29,886 nucleotides of DNA, from positions 1 to 29,886 of IMG/VR virus record IMGVR_UViG_3300009320_001195. The stretch is one strand, 5' to 3'. Shown one piece after another: positions 1-20,388 of this stretch. Position 1 is the stretch's first letter. Every line of letters begins with the position of its first letter. The position numbers were made by a program, and so were the translations under genes. Under the pieces are notes generated by a model. That model ran no database searches. It was not told where the DNA came from and saw nothing but the letters and a program-made list of their open reading frames with translations. The DNA is from a virus.

Positions 1-234
1 GGCGTGGGGCGGAAGTTCTCAGGGGTGTACTACGTTCAGGGCGTGCGGCACGAGATCGGCGAGAGCGGGTATTCCTGCGAGTTGAAGCTCAAGCGCAACG
101 CCCTCGGCAAGGGCGCGGGCGACAAGTCCGAGGACGCCCAGGGCCAGGAGAACGACAGGGAAGCGCCGCCAGTGCCCAAGGAAGAGACGCCGGAGATGGT
201 GACCGTGGACGCGGATACGGGGGAGGAATCGTGA
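1..234 (+). CDS. C-terminus of gpD-like (late control D / gp27-like) tail hub protein, 5' truncated
   Basis: The reading frame is open from base 1 and ends at TGA 232-234, so only the last 77 residues are visible. The pattern G-V-Y-Y-V-Q-G-V-R-H-E-I followed by G-Y-S-C-E-L-K-L-K-R-N is the usual last beta-strand and exit of phage late control gene D proteins. These form the trimeric hub at the base of a contractile tail tube. After the RN motif comes an acidic, Pro/Glu-rich tail of about 40 residues that looks disordered. The gene overlaps the next one by 4 bases, and that gene encodes the spike protein, the normal gpD-gpV order. The family call rests on the C-terminal motif plus context, because the diagnostic upstream part lies outside the window. 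Confidence 0.7.
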   Translation, partial: GVGRKFSGVYYVQGVRHEIGESGYSCELKLKRNALGKGAGDKSEDAQGQENDREAPPVPKEETPEMVTVDADTGEES

Positions 235-1217
235 TCGACGTCTACGAAAAACAGCACGAGGAGCGATACAAGAACCGGTGGTTCGGGAAGTACCGGGCCT
301 TCGTGCGCGACCATCACGATCCGGAGCGCCTCGGCCGCATGCGGCTCGAAGTCCCCGCGGTCCTGGGCACGGGCGATGAGAACTGGTCGGACTGGGCGTC
401 GCCGTGCTTCCCCTACGGTGGGAACGACGATATCGGCATGTTCCTGGTCCCTGAAGAAGGCGCGTCTGTCTGGGCCGAGTTCGAGGGAGGAGACGCGCGG
501 TATCCGATCTGGGTCGGCGTCTGGCTGGCCAAGTCCGATCCCGGCGAGCAACCCGAGGAGGCGAAACGGCTCTGTAGTGAGGCGAAGTGCAAGGACTGCG
601 AGGACAAGAACGAACACCAAGCCAACCCAGCCGACGACGAAGAACACAAGAAGTTCCACCAGCATCCCGACTACTACTGCCCTCGGCGCAAGGTGCTGCT
701 TAAGACCGAGACCGGCCACACCATCGTAGCCGACGACAAGGACGAGGAGGAGTTTCTGAAGGTCATTGACCGCGCGGGACAGATGCTCCACTTCTTCTGT
801 CCGGTGAAGGCCGACAAGAACGAGAACAACGCGCTCCGCCGCGGCACGCAGGAGGCCGAGGGCGGACGTTGCCTGGACGTGGCCGAGGACATCAAGGACG
901 GCAAGGCGCGGATCGAGATTACGGATCTGTGCCGGCAGTTCGTGCGGTGGGAGGCGTGGCAGGACGAGGAGAAGATACACATCCAATCCTGTGACCATAA
1001 TCGCTCGCGCATTCAGAAGCTCCTGCTGGACACCACGAAGGACAAGGAGCGGGTGGTCCTCTCCGGCCTCAACTTCCAGCAGGAGATCATCATCGATTCG
1101 ACCGCGGGCCGGGAGCGCATCCTGGTCCGCGATAAGGTGGGAAGCACGATTGTCATGGACGCGGTGAACGGCAACGTGACCGTCAACGCGAAGAACAAGG
1201 CCTTCATCAATCCGTAG
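231..1217 (+). CDS. gpV/gp5-like baseplate spike protein with OB-fold
   Basis: 328 residues from a GTG start at 231, with GGGAGGA just upstream; ATG is not available nearby. Residues about 15-105 look like the OB-fold of baseplate assembly protein V, gp5 and VgrG (Y-R-A-F-V-R-D-H-H-D-P-E-R-L-G-R-M-R-L, then W-A-S-P-C-F-P-Y-G and G-A-S-V-W-A-E-F-E-G-G-D). The C-terminal 60 residues (I-I-I-D-S-T-A-G, G-S-T-I-V-M-D, G-N-V-T-V-N-A) have the short-strand periodicity of the spike beta-helix. Between them lies an acidic insert with Cys115, Cys120, Cys123 and Cys150 and several histidines, which may bind metal. No lysozyme domain is visible. The protein should trimerise on the hub and carry the PAAR tip encoded next. 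The family assignment is firm; the insert's role is unknown. Confidence 0.82.
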   Translation: MIDVYEKQHEERYKNRWFGKYRAFVRDHHDPERLGRMRLEVPAVLGTGDENWSDWASPCFPYGGNDDIGMFLVPEEGASVWAEFEGGDARYPIWVGVWLAKSDPGEQPEEAKRLCSEAKCKDCEDKNEHQANPADDEEHKKFHQHPDYYCPRRKVLLKTETGHTIVADDKDEEEFLKVIDRAGQMLHFFCPVKADKNENNALRRGTQEAEGGRCLDVAEDIKDGKARIEITDLCRQFVRWEAWQDEEKIHIQSCDHNRSRIQKLLLDTTKDKERVVLSGLNFQQEIIIDSTAGRERILVRDKVGSTIVMDAVNGNVTVNAKNKAFINP

Positions 1218-1326: not shown

Positions 1327-1346
1327 GGAGTTCTCTGGAGAACGAC

Positions 1347-1610
1347 ATGGCGCGGCCGCAGGCGAGGTTGGGCGACATCAGCAGTCACGGAGGCGTCATC
1401 GTGACCGGCGCGCGGCGAACCTTTGTGAACGGCCGCCCGGCGGCGCGCATGGGCGATCTCCACGTCTGCCCGCTGCCGTTCCACGGCATGACGCCGATCT
1501 GTACCGGCGACACGGACACCATCATCGAAGGACGGCCCACCGCCCGGATCGGCGACATCGCCGCGTGCGGCGCGGTCATCGCGACCGGCAGTGAAGACAC
1601 ATTGGCATAA
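1347..1610 (+). CDS. PAAR-domain spike-tip protein
   Basis: 87 residues from ATG 1347, chosen because GGAG lies 6 bases upstream; an upstream in-frame extension would run through the terminator. The sequence has the PAAR repeat pattern: G-D-I-S-S-H-G-G, then V-N-G-R-P-A-A-R-M-G-D-L-H-V-C-P, then F-H-G, then I-I-E-G-R-P-T-A-R-I-G-D-I-A-A-C-G. The His/Cys positions match the zinc-binding residues of the family. PAAR proteins cap the gp5/VgrG spike and can carry cargo or effectors. This one is a bare PAAR with no extension. Its stop codon lies 4 bases before the ATG of the Cys-repeat gene, so the two are likely translationally coupled, which suggests the repeat protein might work at or near the tip. 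Confidence 0.9.
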   Translation: MARPQARLGDISSHGGVIVTGARRTFVNGRPAARMGDLHVCPLPFHGMTPICTGDTDTIIEGRPTARIGDIAACGAVIATGSEDTLA

Positions 1611-1614
1611 CGAA

Positions 1615-3438
1615 ATGGACTGTCAAGCACTCGACAACCTGGACCTCGGCTACTGGGACATCGTTCCCAAGGTCGTGCGCGTGCAGTGCGAGGAGGAGGC
1701 GATCAGCTTCCCCCTCACCGCCTACGGAAAGCGCAAGACCGATCTGGGCTACCGCGTCCTGAACCCGGACATCGCGCAAGTGACCGGTTCGGGCAACGTG
1801 TCCCTGGGCCCCGTCGCCGGCGTCACCATGATCCTGGCGTGGCCGCTCGATGACCCGTGCGACATCAAATACATCCAGCTCGAAGTCGTTTGCGAGGACG
1901 CCTTGGCCTGCGGCGCATGTGAGACCAGTTGCCAGGCAGGATGCGAGCTCAGCTGTGAAACCGGCTGCGAGGTCACGTGCGAGACGGGATGCGAAACCGC
2001 CTGCGAAACCGGGTGTGAAGTCAGTTGTGAGACCGGGTGCGAGATCGCCTGTGAAACCGGCTGCGAGATCTCATGCGAGACGGGCTGCGAAGTCTCTTGC
2101 GAAACGGGATGTGAAATCGCCTGCCAGACCGGCTGTGAGATGGCTTGCGAGACGGGTTGCCAGGTCTCCTGCGAAACGGCCTGTGAGGTTGCCTGCGAGA
2201 CGGCTTGCGAAGTCACCTGCCAGACGGCCTGCGAGGTCGGCTGCGAGACCGGTTGCGAGATTTCATGCGAGCAGGGATGCGAACTCACGTGCGAGCAAGG
2301 CTGCGAACTCCACTGTCAGGAGGCGTGCGAGATCACGTGCCAGAGCGGCTGTGAGATCGCCTGCGAGTCCACGTGCGAGGACCAGTGCGAAGTTTCTTGC
2401 GAAGTTGGCTGCGAGGTGGCCTGCGAGACGGCATGTGAAACCACGTGCCAATCGGGCTGCGAATTGCTCTGCGAGAGCGGATGCCAGCAGTCCTGCGAGA
2501 CCCAGTGCGAAGACGGTTGCCAGACCGGATGCGAAGTGGCTTGTGAGACCGGTTGTGAACTCGCCTGCCAGACGGGGTGCGAGCAGACGTGTCAGACGGG
2601 TTGTGAAGCGGCGTGCGAGGTCGCGTGTGAAGCAACCTGCGAGACCGACTGTGAACTCGCCTGCCAGGAAGCCTGCGAGAACGCCTGTCAGACCGGATGC
2701 GAACTTAGTTGCGAGACGGGTTGTGAACTGACGTGCCAGAGTGCATGCGAAGCCACCTGCGAAACCGGCTGCGAGTTGACCTGTGAGACGCCATGCGAGT
2801 TGGCGTGCGAGACGGGTTGTGAACTCACCTGCGAGGACGCCTGCGAGGTGGCCTGCCAGAGCGCCTGCGAGTTGGCTTGCGAGACTGTATGTGAGACCAC
2901 ATGTGAAACGGGGTGCGAACTGACCTGCGAAACCCCGTGCGAGATGGCCTGTGAGACAGGGTGCGAACTGACGTGCGAATCGGCCTGCGACCTCGCGTGT
3001 CAGACCGGTTGCGAACTCTCCTGCGAGGCCGCGTGCGAGATCACGTGTGAAGCGCCGTGCGAAGTGTCGTGCGAAACCGGTTGTGAGGTCGCCTGCCAGG
3101 TCGGCTGCGAACTGACCTGTGAGACTACCTGCGAAACCGCGTGCGAGACGGGGTGCGAGGTCGCCTGTGAACTCGGATGCGAGACAGCCTGCGAGCCGGG
3201 TTGCGAAACGAGTTGTGAGGTGGGCTGCGAGCTCACGTGCGAAGTCGGCTGCGAAATCGTCTGTGAGGCCGGGTGCGAGACGGGATGCGAAATCCAGTGC
3301 GAGACTGGATGTGAGGTCACCTGCGAAGTCGGGTGCGAGGTGGTTTGCGAGACAGGTTGCGAGGTTACCTGCGAGACCGGCTGCGAAGTGTCCTGTGAGA
3401 CGGGCTGCGAGGTTCAGCAAGAGGGAGGCTGTTCTTGA
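1615..3438 (+). CDS. Giant CXXX-repeat protein with N-terminal Ig-like domain; probable radical SAM substrate
   Basis: 607 residues from ATG 1615 (an in-frame GTG at 1591 would overlap PAAR). Residues about 20-95 resemble a bacterial Ig-like group 2 domain: Y-R-V-L-N-P-D-I-A-Q-V-T-G-S-G-N-V-S-L-G-P-V-A-G-V-T, given here by key residues. From Cys102 to Cys598 a Cys occurs at exactly every fourth residue, 125 in a row without one slip. The residue after each Cys is almost always Glu, sometimes Gln, once Asp. Units tend to alternate C-E-T-G with C-E-(V/L/I)-(S/A/T), an 8-residue super-period. There is no signal peptide. The protein ends C-E-V-Q-Q-E-G-G-C-S. Two SPASM radical SAM enzymes follow 43 bases downstream. 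Database families for short CXXX-repeat radical SAM targets exist as far as I recall, so a heavily thioether-linked product is plausible. Unmodified disulfide-rich or metal-binding protein is the alternative. The coding call is certain; the function is inference. Confidence 0.9.
   Translation: MDCQALDNLDLGYWDIVPKVVRVQCEEEAISFPLTAYGKRKTDLGYRVLNPDIAQVTGSGNVSLGPVAGVTMILAWPLDDPCDIKYIQLEVVCEDALACGACETSCQAGCELSCETGCEVTCETGCETACETGCEVSCETGCEIACETGCEISCETGCEVSCETGCEIACQTGCEMACETGCQVSCETACEVACETACEVTCQTACEVGCETGCEISCEQGCELTCEQGCELHCQEACEITCQSGCEIACESTCEDQCEVSCEVGCEVACETACETTCQSGCELLCESGCQQSCETQCEDGCQTGCEVACETGCELACQTGCEQTCQTGCEAACEVACEATCETDCELACQEACENACQTGCELSCETGCELTCQSACEATCETGCELTCETPCELACETGCELTCEDACEVACQSACELACETVCETTCETGCELTCETPCEMACETGCELTCESACDLACQTGCELSCEAACEITCEAPCEVSCETGCEVACQVGCELTCETTCETACETGCEVACELGCETACEPGCETSCEVGCELTCEVGCEIVCEAGCETGCEIQCETGCEVTCEVGCEVVCETGCEVTCETGCEVSCETGCEVQQEGGCS
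1918..3417 (+). repeat. 125-unit, 12-bp-period coding repeat (CXXX array)
   Basis: Cys codons sit at 1918, 1930 and so on to 3406, an exact 12-bp register (1488 bp = 124 intervals). Synonymous choice is strongly mixed: TGC/TGT, GAG/GAA, ACG/ACC and GGC/GGA/GGT/GGG all occur in neighbouring units. The array therefore does not look like a fresh DNA-level expansion. It looks like an old array held to its protein pattern. The periodic composition also creates long meaningless open frames on both strands. Confidence 0.95.
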
Positions 3439-3481: not shown

Positions 3482-4606
3482 ATGAATCCGACGCTGCAAA
3501 CGATCTGTATCGGCGACTCCCGTCACTGTAACGCGGGATGCACGTATTGTCCCTCGTGTGGCATGGACGCCAAGAAGAAGATCCCCCTGCGCGACCTCAG
3601 GAAGGTGGTCGACTTCTTCATCGCCTACACCAACGACGTCCAACGGAAGCCGCGCGCGTTGTCGTTTGTCCTGAACACACTCGGGGAATCGAGCCTTGCC
3701 ATGGACAACGTCATTGGACTTGCCGATTACGTCGCTCACGTCAACCGCTCAGGCGGTTGTGCCGTTCCGATCTACTTCTTCATGGCTTCAACCAACCTTC
3801 TGGAAGTGACGGATGACCTGGTGAAGTTCGTCAACGGATATGGATACGCGACCGTTTCGCTGCATGGCCGACCAGTGGCCGAGTACGCGGGGCGCATCCG
3901 CAAGTTCGACGCGCACGTCACGCTGGAAGGAACCGACGTCATCCCCAAGCGCCCACTCAATCTGTACGCCAGATACCGCGAGATTCTTGAGCACTTCGAC
4001 CTGGCGTCCATGCGTCCTGTCCGGGAACGCGAGATGGTGATGGACGATTCTTCTCTGTGGATCAAGGAACTCTCTGAGTGTGTCGCAACTCTCATGGCGC
4101 TTCCCGACGCGGAGCTTGCGGGCTACCTGACCCGATTGTCCTTCAACGACACCATCCTGAACGCGCTGCTGTTGTTGGACAGAGGCGCGCAGTTGCACTA
4201 CCGCTGCGTGGCGGGAATCTCCTCGCTCCAGGTCACGCCGGAGATGGAGTTCTATCCCTGCATGTTCACGCAGTACCCCGATCTGCGCATGGGCGATGTC
4301 GAACGCGGCCTTGACCTCGCCTGGCACCGGCGATTCGAAGCGCGCAGGCGCGCAGGCGCGAGACCGGAATGCGCCTCGTGCGAGTTGCTGGGCGCCTGCG
4401 GCGGCTCCTGTCTGGACTGGGCGCGGAAAGACCCGACCGGCGACGGCTTCTTCAGCCCAACGGAGTGTTTCTACAGGCGCGGGCTGTTCAGAGTTGCCGC
4501 TTGGTTCCTTGAGCACATCAAACAAAGGCCCCCCGTCATCAAGGCCCTGCGCAGGCATTTCGGTCTACGTCAAAAGGACTGGCGACCCAAATCGAAGGGA
4601 GAATGA
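3482..4606 (+). CDS. Radical SAM/SPASM enzyme, first of pair
   Basis: 374 residues from ATG 3482, preceded by GAAGGGG. The radical SAM 4Fe-4S motif CX3CX2C is C16-N-A-G-C20-T-Y-C23, unusually close to the N-terminus, with a further Cys at 26. The C-terminus has a SPASM-type cluster: Cys260 (F-Y-P-C), then C297-X2-C300-X5-C306-X3-C310 and Cys329. SPASM enzymes use auxiliary clusters and commonly modify ribosomally made peptides (sactipeptide and ranthipeptide thioethers, quinohemoprotein and mycofactocin pathways). The gene lies directly after the Cys-repeat gene and overlaps the second radical SAM gene by 4 bases, so the repeat protein is its obvious candidate substrate. There is no leader-recognition domain at the N-terminus, unlike its partner. 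The family call is firm; the reaction type cannot be read from the sequence. Confidence 0.9.
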   Translation: MNPTLQTICIGDSRHCNAGCTYCPSCGMDAKKKIPLRDLRKVVDFFIAYTNDVQRKPRALSFVLNTLGESSLAMDNVIGLADYVAHVNRSGGCAVPIYFFMASTNLLEVTDDLVKFVNGYGYATVSLHGRPVAEYAGRIRKFDAHVTLEGTDVIPKRPLNLYARYREILEHFDLASMRPVREREMVMDDSSLWIKELSECVATLMALPDAELAGYLTRLSFNDTILNALLLLDRGAQLHYRCVAGISSLQVTPEMEFYPCMFTQYPDLRMGDVERGLDLAWHRRFEARRRAGARPECASCELLGACGGSCLDWARKDPTGDGFFSPTECFYRRGLFRVAAWFLEHIKQRPPVIKALRRHFGLRQKDWRPKSKGE

Positions 4607-6024
4607 GGATGTTCAAGATGTTGAATGCGACACGTCAGTGCCGGTTCCAGACGCAGCCGACGGAACCGGAGATCGAGATCGTGCAGCTGCCCGGCCACAC
4701 CATGCTGTATGACGTGAACAGCATGGCGGTCGTGGAGGTCGATGACAACTTGGCGGAAGCTGTCGCCGCGGGCAAAGAGAACGTCGCCCTCTGTAAGGTG
4801 CTGCATTGTAACCGCAAGCCGCAGTTCCCATTCTACAACCAGACCGAATGCCGCTACATCGTCCTGGAGGTTACGCACGCCTGCAATTTGGCCTGTGCCT
4901 ACTGCTTCGTGCGCAACTACTACGAGGACCAGGGCGGCATGATGACCATGGACACTGCGCGCCGCGCCATTGACATGATCCCGCCCGGGCATCCGCTATC
5001 CGTGGGCTTCTTCGGCGGCGAGCCCTTCCTCAACTGGGCGCTGATCCAGGAGGTCACCGCCTACGTCACGGACCTTGCCGCCAAGCGCGGCGTGGGCAAG
5101 AGCCTTCACGCCACCACGAACGCCATTCTCCTCGACGATGAGAGGATCGGGTTCCTCGACGAGAACGGATTCTCGCTCATCGTCAGCCTCGACGGCCCGG
5201 AAGAGATTCACAATCGGCTGCGGCCCGCCAGGGACAAGGGGCTGAACAGCCAGCAAGCAACACTCGCGAACCTGCGCCGGTTCAAGGACACGAAGAACCT
5301 GAAACGTCGGACGACGCTGCGCAGCACCTACACCGGCCTTGGCGCGAATCTCGTCGGACGGCTGGAATATCTCAATGCACTGATCCACGAGGGATGCGCA
5401 GCGCACGCCAGCGTGGAGCCGTGCAGCCTGAACGAATCGGCCTGTCTCCGATTGCCGGACGGACACCCCCTGGCCATCACGCCGGCACATTTCGACGCGC
5501 TCAACGAGGAATATCACGCCGCCGCGGAGTGGTACGTCGCGGAGATACGCGCCGGCAGACACCCGGCATTCCACCACTTCATGAAGCCCCTGGAGCGGCT
5601 GCTCTATACCATCCACGCGCCGTCTGAATGCGGGGCCGGCTGTGGCTACATGGCCATCGACTCCGCCGGCAACCTCTACGGCTGCCACCGGGAGAGCAAG
5701 TCCATCATCGGCCACCTGGACACCGGTGTGGATGAGGAACCCCGCGCCAAGTGGCGCGACAACCGCATCTACGCGCGTCCGGACTGCATGACCTGCTCCA
5801 TCAGGTACGTCTGCGGCGGCGGCTGCCGCCTGGACAGCCTGGAGCGTCACGGCGACATCCACAAGCCGGACAAGGTCGGCTGTTTCTTCAAGCGGAGGAT
5901 GTTTGAGGAGGCGCTGTGGATCATGTGCGAGTTGGGCCCTGACAAACTCCAGACGCTCATTCCCAATCCACGTGAGCGCCGGAGAAAGCAGACGGGACGT
6001 CGGCCGCAGTCCAGGAACCCGTAA
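4603..6024 (+). CDS. Radical SAM/SPASM peptide maturase, second of pair
   Basis: 473 residues; ATG 4603 overlaps the preceding stop. An N-terminal segment of about 85 residues (with L-Y-D-V-N-S-M-A-V-V-E-V-D) resembles the substrate-binding N-terminus of ranthipeptide/QhpD-type maturases. Then come the radical SAM motif C94-N-L-A-C98-A-Y-C101 and the G-F-F-G-G-E-P motif near residue 145 for SAM binding. The SPASM region has C395-X2-C398-X5-C404-X3-C408 and Cys427, with extra cysteines upstream (E-C-G-A-G-C, Y-G-C-H-R-E). This is the standard architecture of enzymes making Cys sulfur-to-carbon thioether bonds. The adjacent protein has 125 regularly spaced Cys, each followed by an acidic or amide residue. 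Having two maturases may mean two modification types, or one acting on each of the alternating units. Maturase role very likely; substrate inferred from position. Confidence 0.92.
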   Translation: MRMFKMLNATRQCRFQTQPTEPEIEIVQLPGHTMLYDVNSMAVVEVDDNLAEAVAAGKENVALCKVLHCNRKPQFPFYNQTECRYIVLEVTHACNLACAYCFVRNYYEDQGGMMTMDTARRAIDMIPPGHPLSVGFFGGEPFLNWALIQEVTAYVTDLAAKRGVGKSLHATTNAILLDDERIGFLDENGFSLIVSLDGPEEIHNRLRPARDKGLNSQQATLANLRRFKDTKNLKRRTTLRSTYTGLGANLVGRLEYLNALIHEGCAAHASVEPCSLNESACLRLPDGHPLAITPAHFDALNEEYHAAAEWYVAEIRAGRHPAFHHFMKPLERLLYTIHAPSECGAGCGYMAIDSAGNLYGCHRESKSIIGHLDTGVDEEPRAKWRDNRIYARPDCMTCSIRYVCGGGCRLDSLERHGDIHKPDKVGCFFKRRMFEEALWIMCELGPDKLQTLIPNPRERRRKQTGRRPQSRNP

Positions 6025-6049: not shown

Positions 6050-7039
6050 ATGAACATCCGCATCCTGAGAGAGGCCGGCGGCATCGGCGACGTGGTCTGC
6101 ACTCTCCCCGTGGCCCGCGCGGCAAAGGAGAAGTGGCCGGAGGCGAAGCTCACCTACTTCGGCCTCGAGGACTATCGCGACCTCGTAGCGCACTGCCCGG
6201 ACATAGACGCGTTCGTGCCCGTGCCGCCAAAGGGACGGCGTCCCCGGGATCGGGAGCCGGATGCAGAGCAATGGCCTTACCTCGCGCCCGAAGCGCTGCC
6301 GGAACCTGTCCGCCGCAGCCTTGGCGAAGGCGGATTCGATGTCACGCTCGACTGCTGGTGTCCAGCATTCCGTTACGAGCGAGCGCGCGGCCCGGATGTG
6401 TCACAGAGCCGGATCGAGTCGTTCTGCGACGCGAACGGTCTCAAGCCTTCCGACTGCTGCCCGCATTACGTCGTGACGGACGAAGAGAGAGCATGGGTGC
6501 AAGGCTGGATTGAGGGCCAAGACCTTCACCGGAAGCTGGTCGTCGGCCTCCAGCCGTTCAGCACAAACAGCCGGCGCAACTGGCCGCTTGCCAACTGGAT
6601 CGATCTGGCCCAAGCGCTTCTCAAGCAGGGAACGGCGGTCCTCGTCTTCCACAGCTTCCTGCGAAGGGTCGTGACCGTGCCCGGGCGCAAGGCCACGGGC
6701 CTGGCGCTATGGAAGGTCGCGGCGCTGTTGACGCAGTGCGATTGCGTTGTCACGCCGGACAGCGGGCTGTTTCATCTCGCGGCCGCCATCGAAACACCGG
6801 CCCTCGGCCTCTTCGGCTCGACCAGCGCCGAGCAGACGGCCAAGCATTATCCCTTGCACAAGACCCTCTGGCCGAAAGACGAACCGCGCGCGAAGGAGTG
6901 CAGGACGCCGTGCTACTGCTTCGAGTGGTGTGGCTGCGATGAAGCGTGCGCGGAGAACGGCTGTGAGATTCTGTCGAAGATCGCGGTCCGAGACGTTCTG
7001 GAGGCTCTGACGCCCATGTTGAAGAAGCAGGAGGCCTGA
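6050..7039 (+). CDS. Glycosyltransferase family 9 (heptosyltransferase-like)
   Basis: 329 residues from ATG 6050, preceded by AAAGGAG at 6030-6036. It shows the GT9 signatures: G-G-I-G-D-V-V-C-T-L-P near residue 10, L-Q-P-F-S-T-N-S-R-R-N-W-P in the middle, and V-T-P-D-S-G-L-F-H-L-A-A-A then G-L-F-G-S-T in the nucleotide-sugar half. The C-terminus has an unusually dense Cys cluster (C284 to about C307, including C-Y-C-F-E-W-C-G-C), richer than the few Cys normal for this family. GT9 enzymes usually add heptose to lipopolysaccharide core. Here the gene sits between radical SAM genes and a baseplate gene, 25 bases after one and 2 bases before the next. Glycosylation of the Cys-repeat protein or another tail part is therefore more likely than LPS work. 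Fold call strong, acceptor unknown. Confidence 0.85.
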   Translation: MNIRILREAGGIGDVVCTLPVARAAKEKWPEAKLTYFGLEDYRDLVAHCPDIDAFVPVPPKGRRPRDREPDAEQWPYLAPEALPEPVRRSLGEGGFDVTLDCWCPAFRYERARGPDVSQSRIESFCDANGLKPSDCCPHYVVTDEERAWVQGWIEGQDLHRKLVVGLQPFSTNSRRNWPLANWIDLAQALLKQGTAVLVFHSFLRRVVTVPGRKATGLALWKVAALLTQCDCVVTPDSGLFHLAAAIETPALGLFGSTSAEQTAKHYPLHKTLWPKDEPRAKECRTPCYCFEWCGCDEACAENGCEILSKIAVRDVLEALTPMLKKQEA

Positions 7040-7041
7040 TC

Positions 7042-7581
7042 ATGCCGGGTTGTGGAGTCATCATCCCAGCCGAGGCCAAGGCGCAGAAGATGACGCTGGA
7101 GATCCTCTGCTACCTGGCCAACAAGATGGACGAGCTTCAAGCCACGGTCCAAGCCATGCACGACGACCAGCTTGCGCTGAAGGCCGAGGCCGAGGAGGTC
7201 CTTGAACAACACCGGCAGTCGGCGGAGACCTACTTCGCCAGCTTCCCCGATCCGTGCGGCGACGAGGGCTTTGATCCGTGTCCGTTCGAGTCGCTGCCGG
7301 TCGGCACGAAGCGGCGCGACCTGGACCGCGGAAACTTCGTCTTCATCCTGCCGGACGGCACGATCTTCCGGGTCAATGACGACGGTATCACGGCAGCCCT
7401 GCCGGACGGCGTCGTGGAGAATCTGTCTCCCGATGACGCTTATCGGATTCACACGTCTGACGGCAGGACGTTCCAGCTGAACGAGGAATGCGCGAACGTC
7501 CCGGAGCCCGGGGGTGAGACGCCGGAGCCGGGACCGCCGGAGATCCCGCCCGATCCGGCTGACTGCGAGGAGCCCGAATGA
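7042..7581 (+). CDS. Coiled-coil protein of unknown function in tail operon
   Basis: 179 residues, ATG 7042, 2 bases after the glycosyltransferase stop; its TGA overlaps the gp25 start. Residues about 15-65 are predicted helical and probably coiled coil (M-T-L-E-I-L-C-Y-L-A-N-K-M-D-E-L-Q-A). A middle segment with D-P-C-G-D-E-G-F-D-P-C-P-F follows. Next comes a beta-rich part with short repeats of the type F-I-L-P-D-G-T-I-F-R-V, A-L-P-D-G-V-V and T-S-D-G-R-T-F-Q-L. The end, from about residue 153, is Pro/Glu-rich and probably disordered. I do not recognise a family. Position suggests a structural or chaperone role in fitting the modified protein to the tail, but that is only inference. Confidence 0.75.
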   Translation: MPGCGVIIPAEAKAQKMTLEILCYLANKMDELQATVQAMHDDQLALKAEAEEVLEQHRQSAETYFASFPDPCGDEGFDPCPFESLPVGTKRRDLDRGNFVFILPDGTIFRVNDDGITAALPDGVVENLSPDDAYRIHTSDGRTFQLNEECANVPEPGGETPEPGPPEIPPDPADCEEPE

Positions 7582-11891: not shown

Positions 11892-12890
11892 ATGGACATG
11901 CGAGACCTCAAGTTTGGGATCGAGATCGAGACGATCAGACGCACTCGGCAGTGCGTGGCCGAGGCCATCCAGGCCGTCGTCGGCGGTCAGGTGCGGCACA
12001 CCGGAACACCCGCTTGCTACGACCCCTGGGAGGTGACCGACGCCCAAGGCCGCGTCTGGAAGGTCGTGGCAGATAGCTCGCTGACCATGGTCGCGAGCCA
12101 TCTGCGGGCGGAGGTGGTCAGCCCGGTGCTGACGTACCAGGACATCCCCGAGCTTCAAAAGGTCGCCCGTGCGGTACGGACACTGGCTGGCGCGAAGGTG
12201 GACCGGCGCTGCGGGATTCACATCCACATCGACGCCTCGGCCTTCGACGGTCGCAAGCTCGCCAACCTAGCCAAGATCACCTACAAGCAAGAAGAGCTCA
12301 TCATCCGTGCGCTCGGCTTGGGCGGCACGCGCCTGGCCCAGTACTGTCGGCCTACCCGCGACGAATTCATCCGCAACATCGAACGTCGCCGACCCCGCAC
12401 CCGCGAGCAGCTCAACCGCCTCTGGTACGGATTCCGCAACAGCAACCCCATGCACTACGACGCCACGCGGTACCACCTGCTCAACCTGCACAGCGTGTGG
12501 TACCGGGGCACGGTCGAGATCCGCGCCTTCGGCGGAACGCTTCACGCGGGCAAGGTGAAGGCCTACATCCAGTTCTGCCTAGCGCTCGCAGCCAAGGCGC
12601 TCAACGCTCGCGCGGCATCGAGCAAGAAGCGCCGCGCCAACGGCCACAGCGACAAGTACGACTTCCGGGTCTTCATGCTGCGGCTGGGACTAATCGGCGA
12701 CGAGTTCAAGACCTGCCGCAAGCACCTGCTGGCGAACTTGGCGGGAAGCGCGGCGTGGAAGAACGGACGACCCGCGCCGAGCGTGCAGCAGACTCCCGCG
12801 CCGGAAGACGCCACTCAACCCACCAACGCCTCGGAACAGAGCGACGGCGGCAATGAAGGAAGGGAGGACAACCCATGCTTAAGCTCGTGA
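11892..12890 (+). CDS. Putative amidoligase (Amidoligase_2 family)
   Basis: 332 residues, ATG 11892. It shows the glutamine-synthetase-like pattern of putative amidoligases: F-G-I-E-I-E-T near residue 9, then A-E-V-V-S-P-V-L near 77, C-G-I-H-I-H-I-D near 105, and a late Y-H-L-L-N-L-H-S with [11 protein letters not shown]. These acidic and histidine residues are the expected metal and ATP site. Family members are predicted to form amide or isopeptide bonds between a carboxylate (often glutamate) and an amine. The C-terminal 60 residues are Pro/Ala/Glu-rich and look disordered. It overlaps the next gene by 16 bases. The companions (class II amidotransferase and gamma-glutamylcyclotransferase) are known genomic partners of this family. 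Target unknown. Confidence 0.88.
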
Positions 12891-13297
12891 TGAGAGACGC
12901 CGAGATCTTCGAGGGCGAGACGCACCTCGACCTCGTCTGCGCCATGAAGGGCGCGACGATGTTTTGCGACGTGAAGAACGTCCTCGAGTACATCGCCGTG
13001 GTCCAGAGGCGCGCGCATGAGATGGAGGGACTCGACCTCGAGGTGATCGGCGAGAAGATCGACGACCGGTGTGAATCGCTCGTTGCACAGCTTGAGCGGG
13101 CCAAGCTGGCTACGGTCGAAACGATCCCTGCAGGTGAAACCGGTCAGTTGGCGCGACTCGTGCAGTTGTGCGCGGATACACTCTACGACGGTGACCTGGT
13201 CGGCACATGGCCGTTTCTCCGCGCGCGGTTGCGGCTGACCCGAAGCGAGCGAAATGAGGTCGAGCGGCAGCTTGGCCTTGCCACAGCGAAGGCATGA
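12875..13297 (+). CDS. Hypothetical protein in amidoligase cassette
   Basis: 140 residues from ATG 12875 inside the end of the amidoligase gene; GGGAGGA lies just upstream. The first 25 residues look beta-rich ([20 protein letters not shown]) and the rest mostly helical ([14 protein letters not shown]). No membrane segment or catalytic motif stands out. I do not recognise a family. Overlap with the amidoligase implies co-expression. Confidence 0.75.
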
Positions 13298-13310
13298 ACG
13301 GAGGCGAAGG

Positions 13311-13571
13311 ATGGACAAGATCATAGTGACGAGGGAAGTGCTCGACGGCCTGGAGGCGGTCCGAACGTCCGGCCTGACCAATATGCTGGATAGGCCGGTG
13401 GTAGTCGAACTGGCGCGGCAGATGGGATTCGACGAGACGGCCCGCTGGATCGAGGTCATCGCAAGGAGTACGCCGAAGGCATATTCCAGGGCTTCGAGGC
13501 CGAAGGAGGTGATGGATAGTGTGTGGGCTGGCAGGAGTTATCCTGGGAAAGAAGCGCAGGCGGCGCGATGA
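13311..13571 (+). CDS. DUF5049-like small protein
   Basis: 86 residues from ATG 13311 with GGAGGCGAAGG upstream. The stretch V-L-D-G-L-E-A-V-R-T-S-G-L-T-N-M-L-D, then V-V-E-L-A-R-Q-M-G-F-D-E-T-A and a later K-A-Y, fits DUF5049-type proteins of phages and plasmids, which recur beside amidoligase and gamma-glutamylcyclotransferase genes. The match is from memory of the pattern. The last 25 residues overlap the amidotransferase gene by 53 bases in another frame and may be dispensable. Role unknown. Confidence 0.7.
   Translation: MDKIIVTREVLDGLEAVRTSGLTNMLDRPVVVELARQMGFDETARWIEVIARSTPKAYSRASRPKEVMDSVWAGRSYPGKEAQAAR
13503..13512 (+). promoter_or_regulatory. Strong ribosome binding site deciding a GTG start
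   Basis: AAGGAGGTGA is a near-perfect anti-Shine-Dalgarno match, with 6 bases to GTG 13519. It fixes the amidotransferase start so that Cys becomes residue 2, as an N-terminal nucleophile enzyme requires. It lies within the coding region of the preceding small gene. Confidence 0.85.
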
Positions 13572-14283
13572 GCTTTGCGTCATCGGTGGGATATTCACTG
13601 AGTTGCTGGTCTTGAATGAGGCGCGCGGAACCGATGCCACGGGCATCGCGGTCGTCCGCAAGGACGGGGACTTCAAGCTGCTCAAGCGTCCGGGACCGGC
13701 GGGCATCCTTGTCGAGGACAAGCTCTACCACACCGTGCTCGATCTCGACAACAAGGTCACGGTCGTCCTCGGCCACACGCGGCGCAAGACGCGCGGCACT
13801 GAGCGCAACGCACTGAACAACCACCCGATCCGCGCGGGGCGCGTCATCGGCACGCACAACGGCTACATCGCCAATGCCGATTCCCTGGTCCGGAAGCTGC
13901 GTCTGCCCAGGCACGCCGAGGTGGACTCCGAGGTCTTGTTCCGCCTGGCTGACCGCGCAAGAGACAAGGGCGAGTTCCTTCGACTGCTTCGACGCTGCCG
14001 GGGCCGCATCTCAGCCGCGTTCGTGTGTCTCGACGAGCCGACAAGCGCGTACCTGCTCAAGGGGGACATGCCGCTCCATGCCGCCCACGTCCCGAAGCTG
14101 CGCGCGGTGTTCTACGCCAGCGAGGAATGGATGCTCGCCGAGACTCTCACCGGCTGCGACTGGCAGGCGCTCGAAGTGGACCCACTGACGCTTTCGACGT
14201 TCGACGTGGAATCCCTGCTTGATTTCTCGCAGAAGGATGTGTCATTCAGAACCCCGGAGGCAACCCTATGGCCGACGACGTGA
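13519..14283 (+). CDS. Class II (Ntn-type) glutamine amidotransferase
   Basis: 254 residues from GTG 13519. The sequence opens M-C-G-L-A-G-V, so Met removal exposes Cys as the catalytic N-terminal nucleophile. Further family features are R-G-T-D-A-T-G-I-A-V near residue 35, G-H-T-R near 79, N-N-H-P-I near 96 and G-T-H-N-G near 113. These match GATase class II domains of the GlmS/PurF/AsnB group. No synthetase domain is fused, so the ammonia (or the glutaminyl group) must pass to a separate partner, most simply the amidoligase. It overlaps both flanking genes. The enzyme class is firm; the physiological acceptor is inferred. Confidence 0.9.
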   Translation: MCGLAGVILGKKRRRRDELCVIGGIFTELLVLNEARGTDATGIAVVRKDGDFKLLKRPGPAGILVEDKLYHTVLDLDNKVTVVLGHTRRKTRGTERNALNNHPIRAGRVIGTHNGYIANADSLVRKLRLPRHAEVDSEVLFRLADRARDKGEFLRLLRRCRGRISAAFVCLDEPTSAYLLKGDMPLHAAHVPKLRAVFYASEEWMLAETLTGCDWQALEVDPLTLSTFDVESLLDFSQKDVSFRTPEATLWPTT

Positions 14284-14678
14284 CAACATTATTCGTCTAC
14301 GGCACGCTCATGCGGGGCCAAGTCAACCACGCACGATTCTGCGGCGATGCCCTGACCATCGAGCCGGCGGTCACCACGGGCCGACTCTACCATCTGCCCT
14401 TGGGCTTCCCGGCCATGGTCGAGTCCGGCGACGGCCAGGTCGTCGGGGAAGCCATGACCTTCCCCGACCTCGCGGCGGTCTTGACACGAACCGATCTGTT
14501 GGAGGGCTATAACCCGCTCCAGCCTGACCTATCCACGTACCGCCGCGTTGTCGTGCCCGTCCTGATCGAGCCATCGGCCCGGCGCGTCACGGCATGGACC
14601 TACATCTGGAATCGCGCCCTTCCGCAGGCCGCAATGATGCTGCCGACTGGGCACTGGCGCGACCACCGGCGGATATGA
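14268..14678 (+). CDS. Gamma-glutamylcyclotransferase-like (GGCT/AIG2) protein
   Basis: 136 residues from ATG 14268, overlapping the amidotransferase by 16 bases. The N-terminal L-F-V-Y-G-T-L-M-R-G is the family signature that binds the gamma-glutamyl group, and L-E-G-Y-N-P contains the expected catalytic Glu. The W-T-Y-I-W near the end is also typical. Family members release 5-oxoproline from gamma-glutamyl amines or peptides. In this cassette it could remove or recycle links made by the amidoligase. Length normal. Confidence 0.88.
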   Translation: MADDVTTLFVYGTLMRGQVNHARFCGDALTIEPAVTTGRLYHLPLGFPAMVESGDGQVVGEAMTFPDLAAVLTRTDLLEGYNPLQPDLSTYRRVVVPVLIEPSARRVTAWTYIWNRALPQAAMMLPTGHWRDHRRI

Positions 14679-15060: not shown

Positions 15061-17133
15061 ATGGGGATGGATAACGGACAACTGAACTGGATCGCGGGCT
15101 TCATCTGGAACATCGCCGATGACGTGCTGCGCGATGTGTATGTCCGCGGCAAGTACCGGGACGTCATCTTGCCCATGACGGTCATCCGCCGGCTCGACGC
15201 CGTGCTGGAACCCACCAAGCAGGCCGTCCTCAAGCTGAGCAAGCAGCTTGACGATGCGGGCGTGGCCAACAAGCACGCGGCGCTGTGCCAGGACTCCGGC
15301 AACGCTTTCTACAATATCTCGCCGTTCACGCTCCGGGATCTCCGCGCCCGCGCTAAGCAGCAGCAGCTCAAGGCCGACTTCGAGGCCTACCTCGACGGCT
15401 TCTCGCCTAACGTCCAGGAAATTCTGGACAAGTTCAAGTTCCGCAACCAGATCCCCACGCTCGTCGAGGCCGACATCCTCGGCAGTCTGATCGAGAAGTT
15501 CACCTCGCGCGACATCAACCTCGGCCCCGATCCGGTCCACGATCAGGAGGGCAACGTTCGCCTCCCCGGCCTGGACAACCACGCCATGGGCACGATCTTC
15601 GAGGAATTGATTCGCCGTTTCAACGAGGAGAACAATGAGGAGGCCGGTGAGCACTTCACGCCACGCGACGTGGTCAAGCTGATGGCCAACCTGATCTTCT
15701 ACCCCGTCGCTGACGACATCCGCGACGCGACCTACCGCGTCTATGACGGCGCGTGCGGCACCGGCGGCATGCTCACCGTCGCGGAGGAGACGCTCCAACA
15801 ATTGGCCGAGGATCATGGCAAGGAGGTCTCTATTCACCTGTTCGGCCAAGAAGTCCAGCCCGAAACCTACGCTATCAGCAAGGCCGATCTGCTGCTCAAA
15901 GGCGAAGGTCAGGCCGCCGAGAACATGAAGTACGGCTCCACGCTTTCCTCAGACGCCTTCCCGTCGATGGAATTCGACTTCATGCTCTCGAACCCGCCCT
16001 ACGGAAAGAGTTGGAAGATAGACCTTGAGCGCATGGGCGGCAAGAAGAACCTCGCCGATCCGCGTTTCGCCGTTCAACACCAAGGCGAGGCGCTTCCTCT
16101 TGTCACTCGGTCCAGCGACGGCCAACTCATGTTCCTCGTGAACAAGCTGGTCAAAATGAATCACCAGACCCCGTTGGGCAGCCGCATCGCCGAAGTGCAT
16201 AACGGCTCGTCGCTTTTCACGGGCGATGCCGGGCAGGGCGAGTCCAACATTCGCCGCTGGATCATCGAGAACGACTGGCTCGAGGCCATCATCGCGCTGC
16301 CGCTGAACATGTTCTACAACACCGGCATCGCCACGTACATCTGGGTGCTCACGAACCGCAAGCCCGACCGGCGCAAGGGCAAGGTCCAACTCATCGATGC
16401 GACCGGCATCTACACGCCACTGCGGAAGAACCTAGGCAAGAAGAACTGCGAACTGTCGGACGCGCAGGTTAAGCAGATCACCGACCTGTTCATCGCCTTC
16501 GAGGAAACCGAACAATCGAAGATATTCCCCAACGTGGCTTTCGGCTACTGGAAGATTACCGTCGAGCGCCCGCTGCGGCTGGCGATCCACGTCACGCCCT
16601 CGAAGCTCGCTGCTTTCAAGCGCGACGCTCCGGCGAAGTTACACAAGGCCGCTGACGCGCTTGCGGAGATCGCGGGAGGTCCTGATCCGCACCGGGACTT
16701 CAACGCCGTCCAGGAGCGATTCGAGTCCGCCTTGAAGAAAGCCGATATCAAGCTCCGCGCCCCGGACATGAAAACGATTTACGCCGCTTTCACCTCCAAG
16801 GACGAGTCGGCCGAGCCGGTTATCAAGAAGAAAACCAGGGACGGCGTCCAGTACGAGCCAGACACCGACCTGCGCGACGCCGAGCAGGTTCCGCTGCTGG
16901 AGGAAGGCGGCATCGAGGCGTTCTTCCAGCGCGAGGTGCTGCCCCACGTGCCGGACGCCTGGATCGACCATGACAAGACGCAGATCGGCTATGAGATTTC
17001 CTTCACCCGACACTTCTACAAATCGACGCCGTTGCGCTCCTTGGACGAAATCAGGGCCGACCTGGAAACCCTACAGACCGAGGCTGAGGGGCTGCTCGAC
17101 CAGATCGTCGCGGGCCCTGGAGGTGCGCCATGA
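15061..17133 (+). CDS. hsdM: Type I restriction-modification N6-adenine methyltransferase subunit M
   Basis: 690 residues, ATG 15061 (a second ATG at 15067 is possible). The N-terminal helical domain with I-W-N-I-A-D-D-V-L-R-D and I-L-P-M-T-V-I-R-R-L-D is HsdM-type. Then F-T-P-R-D-V-V-K-L-M, the SAM motif D229-G-A-C-G-T-G-G-M and the catalytic N311-P-P-Y follow. All expected motifs are intact. The length exceeds classical HsdM (about 500-530) because of a long helical C-terminal part (after about residue 520), as in one common subfamily. It overlaps the next ORF by 4 bases. Confidence 0.95.
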   Translation: MGMDNGQLNWIAGFIWNIADDVLRDVYVRGKYRDVILPMTVIRRLDAVLEPTKQAVLKLSKQLDDAGVANKHAALCQDSGNAFYNISPFTLRDLRARAKQQQLKADFEAYLDGFSPNVQEILDKFKFRNQIPTLVEADILGSLIEKFTSRDINLGPDPVHDQEGNVRLPGLDNHAMGTIFEELIRRFNEENNEEAGEHFTPRDVVKLMANLIFYPVADDIRDATYRVYDGACGTGGMLTVAEETLQQLAEDHGKEVSIHLFGQEVQPETYAISKADLLLKGEGQAAENMKYGSTLSSDAFPSMEFDFMLSNPPYGKSWKIDLERMGGKKNLADPRFAVQHQGEALPLVTRSSDGQLMFLVNKLVKMNHQTPLGSRIAEVHNGSSLFTGDAGQGESNIRRWIIENDWLEAIIALPLNMFYNTGIATYIWVLTNRKPDRRKGKVQLIDATGIYTPLRKNLGKKNCELSDAQVKQITDLFIAFEETEQSKIFPNVAFGYWKITVERPLRLAIHVTPSKLAAFKRDAPAKLHKAADALAEIAGGPDPHRDFNAVQERFESALKKADIKLRAPDMKTIYAAFTSKDESAEPVIKKKTRDGVQYEPDTDLRDAEQVPLLEEGGIEAFFQREVLPHVPDAWIDHDKTQIGYEISFTRHFYKSTPLRSLDEIRADLETLQTEAEGLLDQIVAGPGGAP

Positions 17134-17411
17134 AGGCTTTCGAGCGAAACCGGTCGAGGACTGTCACCGATATGGGACGTCTATGGGACATGAACGCAGT
17201 GCCAGGCGTGAATCGTGCCAGTAACGCGCCATTCGTGCCATCCGAGGCGGACCTTCCCATCCCAATTGGCTCAGGAATGGCTCAAATGGTTCATTGCGTC
17301 CTATCGAGAGGGGCCGCGAAGAGGCCAAACGGGCCAGACGTCAACGCGCTTGAGAAACGGGACGTGAAGGGGACATCCGGCGCAAGCGACACGGAGGGCG
17401 ACCGCCTATGA
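17130..17411 (+). CDS. Small ORF of uncertain reality between hsdM and the YhcG-like gene
   Basis: 93 residues. It starts at an ATGA overlap with hsdM (17130) and ends at an ATGA overlap with the next gene (17408), which favours real translation or at least coupling. The sequence itself is unlike a folded protein: low in large hydrophobics, rich in Arg, Gly, Pro and Ser, with no recognised motif. Another frame here reads S-Q-L-A-Q-E-W-L-K-W-F-I-A-S-Y-R-E-G-P-R, which looks more protein-like but is short. It may be a decayed gene remnant. Confidence 0.4.
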   Translation: MKAFERNRSRTVTDMGRLWDMNAVPGVNRASNAPFVPSEADLPIPIGSGMAQMVHCVLSRGAAKRPNGPDVNALEKRDVKGTSGASDTEGDRL

Positions 17412-18481
17412 GCAAACGCGGCCAACATCCCGCAAAGAAACAGGCATCGACGCCGAACGGCTCCGACCTCTTCGCCGATGTTCGGCGCATGATCGAGGAG
17501 ACGCGGGCAGGCGTCGCGGTCACGGTCAACGCCGGGCTCACGATGTTGTACTGGCGGATCGGCAGGCGGATCGGTCAGGAGATATTGAAGGGTGAAAGGG
17601 CTGAATACGGCAAGGAGATTGTCTCGGCGCTGGCGAGACAATTGACGACCGAGTATGGGCGAGGGTTCTCCGAGAAGAGCTTGCGGCACATGATCCGCTT
17701 CGCGGAAGCCTTTCCCGATGAGCGAATTGTCTCAGCGCTGATGAGACAATTGAGCTGGACCCACTTCCTGGCCATCATCTACCTGCCGGAACCTCTGCAG
17801 CGCGATTTCTACGCCGAGATGTGTCGCGTCGAACGCTGGAGCACCCGCACACTCCAGAAGAAGATCGGCGGCATGCTGTACGAACGCACCGCCCTGTCCC
17901 GCAAGCCGGAGGAACTCGCCCGAATCGAGCTGGACGCTCTGCGCGACGAGGACCGCATGGCCCCGGACCTGGTCTTCCGCGACCCGTATCTGCTCGACTT
18001 CCTCGGCCTCAAGGACACGTTCCTGGAACAGGATCTCGAAGCGGCCATTCTGCGTGAACTGGAATCCTTCCTGCTCGAACTGGGCGCGGGGTTCACATTC
18101 GTCGCCCGGCAGAAGCGCATCACCCTCGATGGGGACGATTTCTACCTCGACCTGTTGTTCTTCCACCGCGACCTGCGACGGCTCGTGGCCGTTGAATTGA
18201 AGCTCGACCGGTTCCGGCCCGACCACCTTGGCCAGATGGAGATGTACCTGCGCTGGCTGGACAAGCACGAACGCAAACCCGGCGAGGAGGCGCCCCTGGG
18301 CATTATCCTCTGCGCCGGGAAGAAGCAGGAGCGAATCGAGTTGCTGGAACTGGACGCCTCCGGCATTCACGTCGCGGAGTACCTGACCGTCCTGCCGCCC
18401 AAGGACGTGCTGCGGCGGAAGCTGCACGCCGCCATCGAGTTGTCGCGCCGGCAAATCGAGAACCGGGAGCCGGAAGCATGA
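17408..18481 (+). CDS. YhcG/DUF1016-family PD-(D/E)XK nuclease-like protein
   Basis: 357 residues, ATG 17408. The N-terminal half has the DUF1016 pattern (V-N-A-G-L-T-M-L-Y-W-R-I-G-R-R-I, Y-G-K-E-I-V-S-A-L-A-R-Q-L and F-S-E-K-S-L-R-H-M-I-R-F-A-E). The C-terminal half has the nuclease core: D248 in F-Y-L-D-L-L-F-F-H-R and E263-L-K265 in V-A-V-E-L-K-L-D, followed by G-Q-M-E-M-Y-L-R-W-L-D. Active-site residues are therefore intact. Members of this family are frequent passengers in type I restriction loci. Whether it cleaves DNA or another target is not known. It overlaps hsdS by 4 bases. Confidence 0.9.
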   Translation: MSKRGQHPAKKQASTPNGSDLFADVRRMIEETRAGVAVTVNAGLTMLYWRIGRRIGQEILKGERAEYGKEIVSALARQLTTEYGRGFSEKSLRHMIRFAEAFPDERIVSALMRQLSWTHFLAIIYLPEPLQRDFYAEMCRVERWSTRTLQKKIGGMLYERTALSRKPEELARIELDALRDEDRMAPDLVFRDPYLLDFLGLKDTFLEQDLEAAILRELESFLLELGAGFTFVARQKRITLDGDDFYLDLLFFHRDLRRLVAVELKLDRFRPDHLGQMEMYLRWLDKHERKPGEEAPLGIILCAGKKQERIELLELDASGIHVAEYLTVLPPKDVLRRKLHAAIELSRRQIENREPEA

Positions 18482-20388
18482 GCCTGCAACCCTATCCCGA
18501 ATACAAGGACTCCGGCCTGCCTTGGCTGGGACAAGTGCCGGCACACTGGGAGGAGAAGCGAGGCAAGTTCTACTTCCGGGAAGTGGACGAGCGATCCGCC
18601 AGCGGAGAAGACCCCTTGCTTTCTGTGTCGCATGTTACGGGCGTTACGCCGAGAAAAGCCAACGTGACGATGTTCATGGCGGAGTCGAACATCGGCCACA
18701 AGGTCTGCCGCCCCGGCGACTTGGTGATCAACACGATGTGGGCATGGATGGCGGCGATGGGTGTGTCGCGGCAGGTTGGTCTTGTCAGCCCCTCATATGG
18801 CGTCTACCGCCCGCGCGGTGGTGACCTGTATTCTCCAGATTACCTCGATCACCTTCTAAGAAGTCAGCCATACGTTTCCGAGTACGTATGCCGGTCCACT
18901 GGCATCCGAGCGTCACGATTGCGCCTTTACCCGGACGACTTCCTCGATATCCCCGTGGTTCGCCCTCCCTTGGAAGAACAGGGCGCGATGGTCAGATTCA
19001 TCGCACATCACGACGGCATGGTTCGCCGTTTCATTCGCAATCGACGAAGGCTGATCGAGGTGCTCAACGAGCAGAAGCAGGCCATCATCAATCGGGCCGT
19101 CACCCGCGGCCTCGACCCCAATGTGCCTCTCAAGCCATCGAGTATCGACTGGCTCGGAGACATCCCAGAGCATTGGGAGGTGCTTCGCCTGAAGAACATT
19201 GCTACTGTCGTCCTTGGGAAGATGCTGAAAACGTCGCCTTCCCCTGGATACAAGCTGCGGCCATATCTCCGATCCGCCAATATCCAGTGGTGGGAGCCCC
19301 GATTGGACGACGTGGCCGAGATGTGGTTTTCGGATGCCGAGATGGACCTGTACCGGCTTTCGACAGGCGATCTACTCGTAAGCGAGGGAGGAGAAGTCGG
19401 CAGGGCGTGCATCTGGAATGGACAGATCGAGGAATGCTACATTCAGAATTCGGTGCACAAGGTTTCACCGAATGAGCGTGTCCGCTCACAATTCTTACTT
19501 CTTCAGTTCTTTCTACTGGGGAAGTCAGGCCGATTTGAAGCCATCACGAACCGAGTAAGCATCGGGCACTTGACCCGCGAGAAGCTTGTGGCTGTGTGCG
19601 TAGCAGTGCCACCAATCAACGAGCAGGATCAGATAGTGAACCGAGTGGCTGAAAGCACCCACTCAATCAACGCGGCCATCAGCCGTGCCCAGAGCGAAAT
19701 CGCCTTGATCCGCGAGTACCGGACGCGCCTGATTACGGACATCGTGACGGGCAAGCTGGATGTCCGGCAGGCTTTGACCGTTGCGGCTCCGGTGAAGCGA
19801 ACGAAACGAACCGCAAACATCCATTTCCAGCGCTCGGTCTTCGCAGCGGAGATTGTCCACCGCCTCTACCAGGAACCGACCTTCGGCCACGTGAAGTTCC
19901 AGAAGCTGATTTTCCTCTGCGAGAAACGATGCGGCATCGATACGGGTTCCACATACCATCGGCAGGCTGCCGGGCCCTATGACAACCGTGCTCTGCGGTC
20001 TATCGACAGCCAGATGAAGAGGCAAGGATGGTACGAAGCCAGCAAGGTAGATAAGGGCTACCGCTATGTTCCCTTGGGCAAGGCAGGTAACCATAGGCAG
20101 TACTTCGACCGCTACTTCAGCGAGGTGGTCCCGCTACTTGACGAGGTCATTGAGATCTTCCGTAGAGCCAAGACGGTTCAGTGCGAGATCGTGGCCACTC
20201 TTTACGCCGCCTGGGAAGACCTGTTGGCTCAGGGCGGCAACGTGACCGACACTCAAATCATTGACGAAGTGCTTGATTGGCATCCATCGAAACAGGAAAT
20301 CACCGAGGATCGCTGGCGACGAGCGCTTAGGTGGATGAAGGAAAAGGGCCTGACGCCTGAAATGGGGGTGAGCAGTGTCAGCGACTGA
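18478..20388 (+). CDS. hsdS: Type I specificity subunit S fused to a DUF4065/Panacea-like domain
   Basis: 636 residues, ATG 18478. The first about 430 residues are a normal HsdS. The opening Y-K-D-S-G-L-P-W-L-G-Q-V-P-A-H-W-E begins target recognition domain 1; the same block (I-D-W-L-G-D-I-P-E-H-W-E) starts domain 2 near residue 222, and helical spacers follow each. The standard end I-V-T-G-K-L-D-V-R-Q-A lies at about 421-431. A further 200 residues follow, with F-G-H-V-K-F-Q-K-L-I-F-L-C-E near 465 and A-G-P-Y-D near 497. That is the pattern of DUF4065 (SocA/Panacea) domains known in antitoxins and regulators. The fused domain may sense or gate the complex. The fusion shows no frame disruption. 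Confidence 0.9.
   Translation: MSLQPYPEYKDSGLPWLGQVPAHWEEKRGKFYFREVDERSASGEDPLLSVSHVTGVTPRKANVTMFMAESNIGHKVCRPGDLVINTMWAWMAAMGVSRQVGLVSPSYGVYRPRGGDLYSPDYLDHLLRSQPYVSEYVCRSTGIRASRLRLYPDDFLDIPVVRPPLEEQGAMVRFIAHHDGMVRRFIRNRRRLIEVLNEQKQAIINRAVTRGLDPNVPLKPSSIDWLGDIPEHWEVLRLKNIATVVLGKMLKTSPSPGYKLRPYLRSANIQWWEPRLDDVAEMWFSDAEMDLYRLSTGDLLVSEGGEVGRACIWNGQIEECYIQNSVHKVSPNERVRSQFLLLQFFLLGKSGRFEAITNRVSIGHLTREKLVAVCVAVPPINEQDQIVNRVAESTHSINAAISRAQSEIALIREYRTRLITDIVTGKLDVRQALTVAAPVKRTKRTANIHFQRSVFAAEIVHRLYQEPTFGHVKFQKLIFLCEKRCGIDTGSTYHRQAAGPYDNRALRSIDSQMKRQGWYEASKVDKGYRYVPLGKAGNHRQYFDRYFSEVVPLLDEVIEIFRRAKTVQCEIVATLYAAWEDLLAQGGNVTDTQIIDEVLDWHPSKQEITEDRWRRALRWMKEKGLTPEMGVSSVSD

Follow-up and report, generated by a model that had tools for sequence, protein, structure and literature searches.

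The window analysed here, which is the whole stretch of DNA under study, comprises the 29,886 bases of an IMG/VR record, and its left part is occupied by the baseplate cluster of a phage, as identified from gene reading and Pfam matches. The gene for a cysteine-array protein, the genes for two radical SAM/SPASM proteins (E1 and E2) and the gene for a heptosyltransferase-like GT9 glycosyltransferase are contiguous (Table 1). Since the PAAR gene is located immediately 5' of the array gene, the array can be assigned to the baseplate cluster. The protein without assigned function is followed by gp25, gpJ, gpI and a tail-fibre-network-like protein.

Table 1. Features of the array locus and its flanking genes; positions refer to the window.
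Feature	Position	Strand	Remarks
gpV-like protein	231-1217		
PAAR tail-tip protein	1344..1610	+	PF05488 6.9e-23; directly upstream of array protein
Array protein, probable substrate	1615..3438	+	607 aa; N-terminal domain of ~98 aa, then Cys array
C-[E/Q]-x-x array	1909..3411	+	Residues 99-599
E1, radical SAM/SPASM protein without N-terminal RRE	3482..4606	+	374 aa
E1 CX3CX2C cluster motif	3527..3550	+	C16/C20/C23
E1 SPASM cysteines	4205..4468	+	C242, C260, C297, C300, C306, C310, C329
E2, CteB-like radical SAM/SPASM protein	4603..6024	+	473 aa
E2 N-terminal RRE-like (leader-binding) region	4603..4833	+	Predicted strands then helices; aligned with CteB from residue 1
E2 CX3CX2C cluster motif	4882..4905	+	C94/C98/C101
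E2 GGEP motif	5014..5025	+	FFGGEP at 136-141
E2 SPASM cysteines	5629..5883	+	C343, C361, C395, C398, C404, C408, C427
GT9 (heptosyltransferase-like) glycosyltransferase, probable third partner	6050..7039	+	PF01075 3.2e-19
Protein without assigned function	7042-7581		After GT9

The window shares the stretch from gpV into the array with a near-identical contig from another record (G005; L009, with L396). This record carries genes for a major head protein, for head morphogenesis and for neck proteins; a sheath-like protein and a long ORF of the tape-measure type were also read from its sequence. The combination of head, neck, sheath-like and tape-measure-like genes indicates a phage with a contractile tail and not a tail-like particle. 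In this relative, a 1337-aa DNA methyltransferase-like ORF is located between the head morphogenesis and major head genes (L396:6399-10412). In the window, genes for an amidoligase, a glutamine amidotransferase and a gamma-glutamyl cyclotransferase (GGACT) are grouped after the tail cluster (11892-14678). Beyond approximately 15 kb, the gene content (type I restriction-modification, an ABC transporter and a two-component system) resembles that of a host chromosome. Positions 15061-23404 probably represent host sequence or a prophage boundary and encode the type I restriction system HsdM, HsdS and HsdR, in which HsdM and HsdS are separated by a DUF1016/YhcG nuclease gene.

The array consists of a run of 128 cysteines, of which 98% are followed by E or Q and 98% are spaced by four residues. 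Between the array units, codon positions one and two are 67% identical, as compared to 45% for position three, and the stronger divergence at third positions indicates that the pattern is kept at the protein level. In divergent phages, E or Q follows 63-100% of the array cysteines, usually more than 80%, and the arrays sit within different tail proteins, such as Tail_P2_I proteins and one protein with Big domains. Further arrays were recovered by a DNA pattern search of viral contigs, and a SPASM protein was present in 26 of the 32 array-bearing records tested (three of the 32 being cellular genomes). When genome contigs were searched with a 6-unit C[E/Q]xx DNA pattern, the matches were mostly frame-shifted or simple tandem repeats, and only a few true arrays accompanied by an enzyme emerged (L159, L176, and L164 together with its contig). 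The last of these is a planctomycete contig from a cellular genome (CAIUPP010000138.1; L164 and L410), which encodes an array protein, a relative of E2 and a GT9 protein; the locus is probably a prophage and a clue to the host.

The two enzymes beside the array had been recognized in the original prediction as unequal SPASM radical SAM proteins acting on one substrate, a description that did not mention the adjoining GT9 gene, the many relatives with a single enzyme or the phage baseplate setting. The description of the pair is borne out: both proteins are of the peptide-maturase type, all cluster ligands are present, and a single cysteine-array candidate substrate lies next to them. The E1 gene starts 43 nt after the array stop codon and overlaps the E2 ORF by 4 nt (ATGA), and the two were confirmed as intact, unequal and translationally coupled radical SAM/SPASM proteins. 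Their catalytic parts are homologous over the whole length (hhalign probability 98.3%, 325 columns). In the phylogenetic tree, E1 forms a separate clade (support 100/100) on a branch of 3.66 changes per column, while E2 of the window groups with the E2 proteins of two other phages, G008 and G009 (99/98). A recent duplication of one enzyme gene into the other is ruled out by these separate clades and the long E1 branch.

Both enzymes score above the cut-off of 27 bits for the SPASM model TIGR04085 (E1, 40.2 bits; E2, 50.4 bits). E2 also matches the Radical_SAM model PF04055 with 54 bits (gathering threshold 29.5), and E1, which hhalign links to E2 with 98.3% probability, had no match to this model up to an E-value of 0.01 in the Pfam scan. 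The cluster motif of E1 begins at residue 16, as predicted, and this motif and the seven SPASM cysteines are invariant in all three E1 homologs, as are three additional cysteines, C9, C93 and C200. Likewise, the cluster motif and SPASM cysteines of E2 are invariant across the eight aligned relatives, so that the cluster residues have not been lost in the homologs of either enzyme. One E2 relative, in record G011 (L271:1-2310, minus strand), contains two long insertions, each of which starts at a SPASM cysteine; they begin with CFSGDT and CFTGDT, end in N before Cys, and look, from these boundary motifs, like inteins within the SPASM domain.

The N-terminal substrate-binding-type segment and the GGEP motif attributed to E2 were both recovered. 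The predicted structure of E2 (pLDDT 78) aligns over residues 21-445 with residues 1-450 of CteB (5wgg) with a Z-score of 32.9 and an rmsd of 2.7 (393 aligned residues), and the N-terminal region of the model thus sits where CteB has its RRE. E1 had been said to lack both features, which is correct only for the first. Its alignment to CteB starts only at CteB residue 93, leaving no room for an RRE, but the position of GGEP is occupied by LGES, and by LGEP in both homologs, so that the motif is degenerate, not absent. On this basis, the CteB-type architecture of RRE, radical SAM and SPASM domains is predicted for E2 only, not for E1. The structure prediction for E1, from an alignment of three sequences, gave a pLDDT of 46 and was set aside, and these same three sequences underlie the conclusions on E1. 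The weak radical SAM score, with no PF04055 match in the Pfam scan, and the altered GGEP motif might suggest that E1 is a non-catalytic or decaying partner, such as a scaffold or substrate-delivery protein; we consider this highly improbable, given that none of the three CX3CX2C or seven SPASM cysteines varies among the three homologs and that dN/dS values of 0.17-0.31 indicate purifying selection.

We compared both enzymes to known maturase families. The best family matches of E2 were to SCIFF (1.2e-59), PapB (2.6e-49) and QhpD (6e-49), with CteB at 3.6e-75, and those of E1 were to PapB (1.8e-14), QhpD (1.6e-12) and SCIFF (5e-8), with CteB as the match in the PDB (6.6e-15). As judged by sequence similarity, the best-scoring families of both enzymes are thereby thioether-forming maturases, although all maturase-family scores were far below the equivalog cut-offs. 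For the SCIFF (thermocellin) maturase CteB (TIGR03974), which is closest to E2 by sequence and fold and has the same predicted domain layout, the scores were 202.4 bits for E2 and 32.2 bits for E1 (cut-off 425); the SCIFF substrate is a six-cysteine peptide of 45 residues, whereas the candidate substrate here, a phage tail protein, has more than 100 cysteines. Among the NCBIfam models, E1 comes closest to the freyrasin maturase PapB (NF047865), which also ranks with the nearest models of E2 (53.7 and 168.2 bits; cut-off 340). The PapB substrate is likewise a Cys-acid repeat peptide, but with a CX3D pattern in PapA as compared to cysteines directly before E or Q and spaced by four in the array. 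PapB crosslinks Cys with Asp or Glu across spacers of 0-6 residues (PMC9413430). QhpD, of quinohemoprotein amine dehydrogenase maturation (TIGR03906; E1 46.8 bits, E2 167 bits; cut-off 453), forms methylene thioethers between Cys and Asp/Glu within a protein subunit (PMC8172795), and so acts on a structural protein rather than a small peptide; it differs in that a single enzyme acts on a small subunit with three thioethers and no repeat array. The anaerobic sulfatase maturase model TIGR03942 was rejected, with scores of 17.8 bits for E1 and 70.2 bits for E2 against a cut-off of 349.45, and neither enzyme falls in a non-peptide family. The suggestion that E1 may be an epimerase found no support at the sequence level, as no epimerase family was among the matches listed for E1 or E2. 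The CXXX-repeat peptide maturases (two models are so named, TIGR04115 and TIGR04119) take their name from CXXX repeats in the target, and the scores for TIGR04115 were weak (E1 27.1 bits, E2 51.3 bits; cut-off 350). We know of no link between these maturases and phage tails, E/Q residues or GT9 proteins. A literature search, with most subscription journals outside it, found no report of phage tail arrays modified by radical SAM enzymes and no paper naming TIGR04114, TIGR04115 or TIGR04119.

That E1 catalyzes a different reaction on the same protein, such as C-C crosslinking, dehydrogenation or modification of Gln or Thr instead of thioether formation, would be consistent with its long branch to E2, its extra invariant cysteines and its altered GGEP motif. 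Since the closest families and the closest solved structure of E1 are thioether formers, we regard this as unlikely.

E1 was located in three phages only, those of the window and of records G001 and G004, and in each of them its gene directly follows the array. E1 and E2 were found together only in the window; the contigs of G001 and G004 (L003 and L317) end 3-5 bases past the E1 match, likely because the virus caller trimmed them at a gene boundary. The truncated E1 contigs belong to the records IMGVR_UViG_3300032163_001976 and IMGVR_UViG_3300033153_015519. The arrays of the three E1 phages are the longest among 24 records, with 128, 188 and 137 cysteines compared to at most 80 elsewhere (Mann-Whitney p=0.003, uncorrected for the relatedness of these phylogenetically non-independent records; array lengths are lower bounds wherever a contig ends). 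A single PF04055 match was identified in seven E2 records of 20-63 kb (G007, G008, G009, G012, G015, G020 and G023), of which G012 also has a weak remnant of a SPASM sequence containing a stop codon. In a scan that started from the enzyme, a C[EQ] array was present within 6 kb at 21 of 29 viral E2 loci with at least 32% identity and at 16 of 50 less similar loci; the scan is not fully independent, as its E2 alignment was derived from loci found via arrays. A tblastn search of phage GenBank records gave no match for E1, and among the matches listed for E2 the radical SAM genes were all distant, with 28.7% identity at the most. Likewise, a search made without a positive control found no relative of E1 in 392 genomes from the phylum to which the planctomycete record G010 belongs. 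Four array phages have two or three neighboring radical SAM genes of other types, one of which is often short (276-357 aa; L341, L350, L356 and L369), and the presence of more than one radical SAM enzyme per array thus recurs with enzymes of other types.

The original prediction also proposed that each enzyme acts on one type of alternating unit, which would mean that E1 modifies either CETG or CE[VLI]x and E2 the other. The array of the window does alternate between polar and hydrophobic residues at the +2 position far above shuffled arrays (91 of 126 transitions, 63 expected, p<0.0005). The alternation is weak in the E1-bearing contig L003 (p=0.015) and absent from L317 of the E1 phage G004 (59 of 135 transitions, 67 expected, p=0.93). 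The E2-only phages G008 and G009 contain seven and five CETG-CE[VLI] pairs, with no second radical SAM gene detected within 38-44 kb. Alternation thus does not follow the presence of the second enzyme, and such a division of labor is very unlikely.

It could also be argued that E1 or E2 acts on another tail protein and that the array is merely linked by disulphides or metal. We infer the substrate from gene order and co-occurrence, and regular CXXXC spacing could bind metal or form disulphides. This alternative appears quite unlikely, as E2-type genes repeatedly accompany arrays in tail settings that are unrelated to one another (Tail_P2_I proteins, the Big-domain protein and others) and each of the three E1 genes comes straight after an array.

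A GT9 gene was found in 19 of 25 E2-family and E1 records, as compared to 2 of 36 comparison records (Fisher 9e-9); among the latter are 11 array phages whose radical SAM enzymes are of other types, and none of these phages has GT9. The GT9 gene mostly lies directly behind E2, and in 18 records the GT9 domain starts 408-2148 bases downstream of E2. The core module thus appears to consist of the C[EQ]xx tail array, E2 and the GT9 glycosyltransferase, and E1 is best read as a lineage-specific second maturase, which has the look of an add-on to the longest arrays; close relatives manage with one of the two radical enzymes. The GT9 protein of the window matches PF01075 and LPS heptosyltransferase models only, and the model for the BAHT autotransporter heptosyltransferases is unmatched. 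The BAHT enzymes, such as TibC, are GT9-like and hyperglycosylate a long repetitive surface protein, which is reminiscent of the role proposed here. Four cysteines near the C-terminus are common to most of the GT9 proteins and recall the four-cysteine iron-finger of TibC (PMC4358343), although they are spaced differently and the resemblance need not mean kinship.

Taken as a whole, we tentatively favor the explanation that the array, E1, E2 and GT9 form a tail-protein maturation module of a contractile-tailed phage or prophage, with E2 as the core thioether enzyme, E1 as a second maturase and GT9 for glycosylation. E2 would bind the array protein via its RRE-like N-terminal domain and install S-to-carbon thioethers of the non-alpha, ranthipeptide type that link array cysteines to side chains in their vicinity. 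The near-invariant E or Q after each cysteine may be the favored acceptor or a recognition residue. Because the nearest families form non-alpha-carbon cysteine thioethers and Glu and Gln together are about as numerous in the array as Cys, chemistry of the PapB or QhpD type would fit; no precedent for Gln as an acceptor was found. E1 probably acts on the same array, either directly or via the binding domain of E2 or of another protein, and would complete or extend the modification along unusually long arrays. By analogy, it could use a binding protein in trans, as the RRE-less PqqE uses PqqD (PMC8326336). GT9, encoded downstream, probably adds sugars to the same array protein, and the product would be a tail fibre or spike that is rigid and resists chemical attack.

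More broadly, it is conceivable, at a similarly tentative level, that in many tailed phages dedicated radical SAM enzymes and GT9 turn C[EQ]xx arrays, grafted onto a variety of tail proteins, into a thioether-stapled, glycosylated fibre, and that one lineage added a second, RRE-less enzyme for arrays of more than 120 cysteines. The system would offer testable substrates that are unusually long and regular, and natural one-enzyme and two-enzyme versions that can be compared. If the proposal is correct, RiPP-type chemistry would serve a structural part of the virion, with possibly a hundred or more crosslinks per chain, and radical SAM peptide chemistry, so far associated mainly with small natural products and one dehydrogenase subunit, would also make parts of virus particles.
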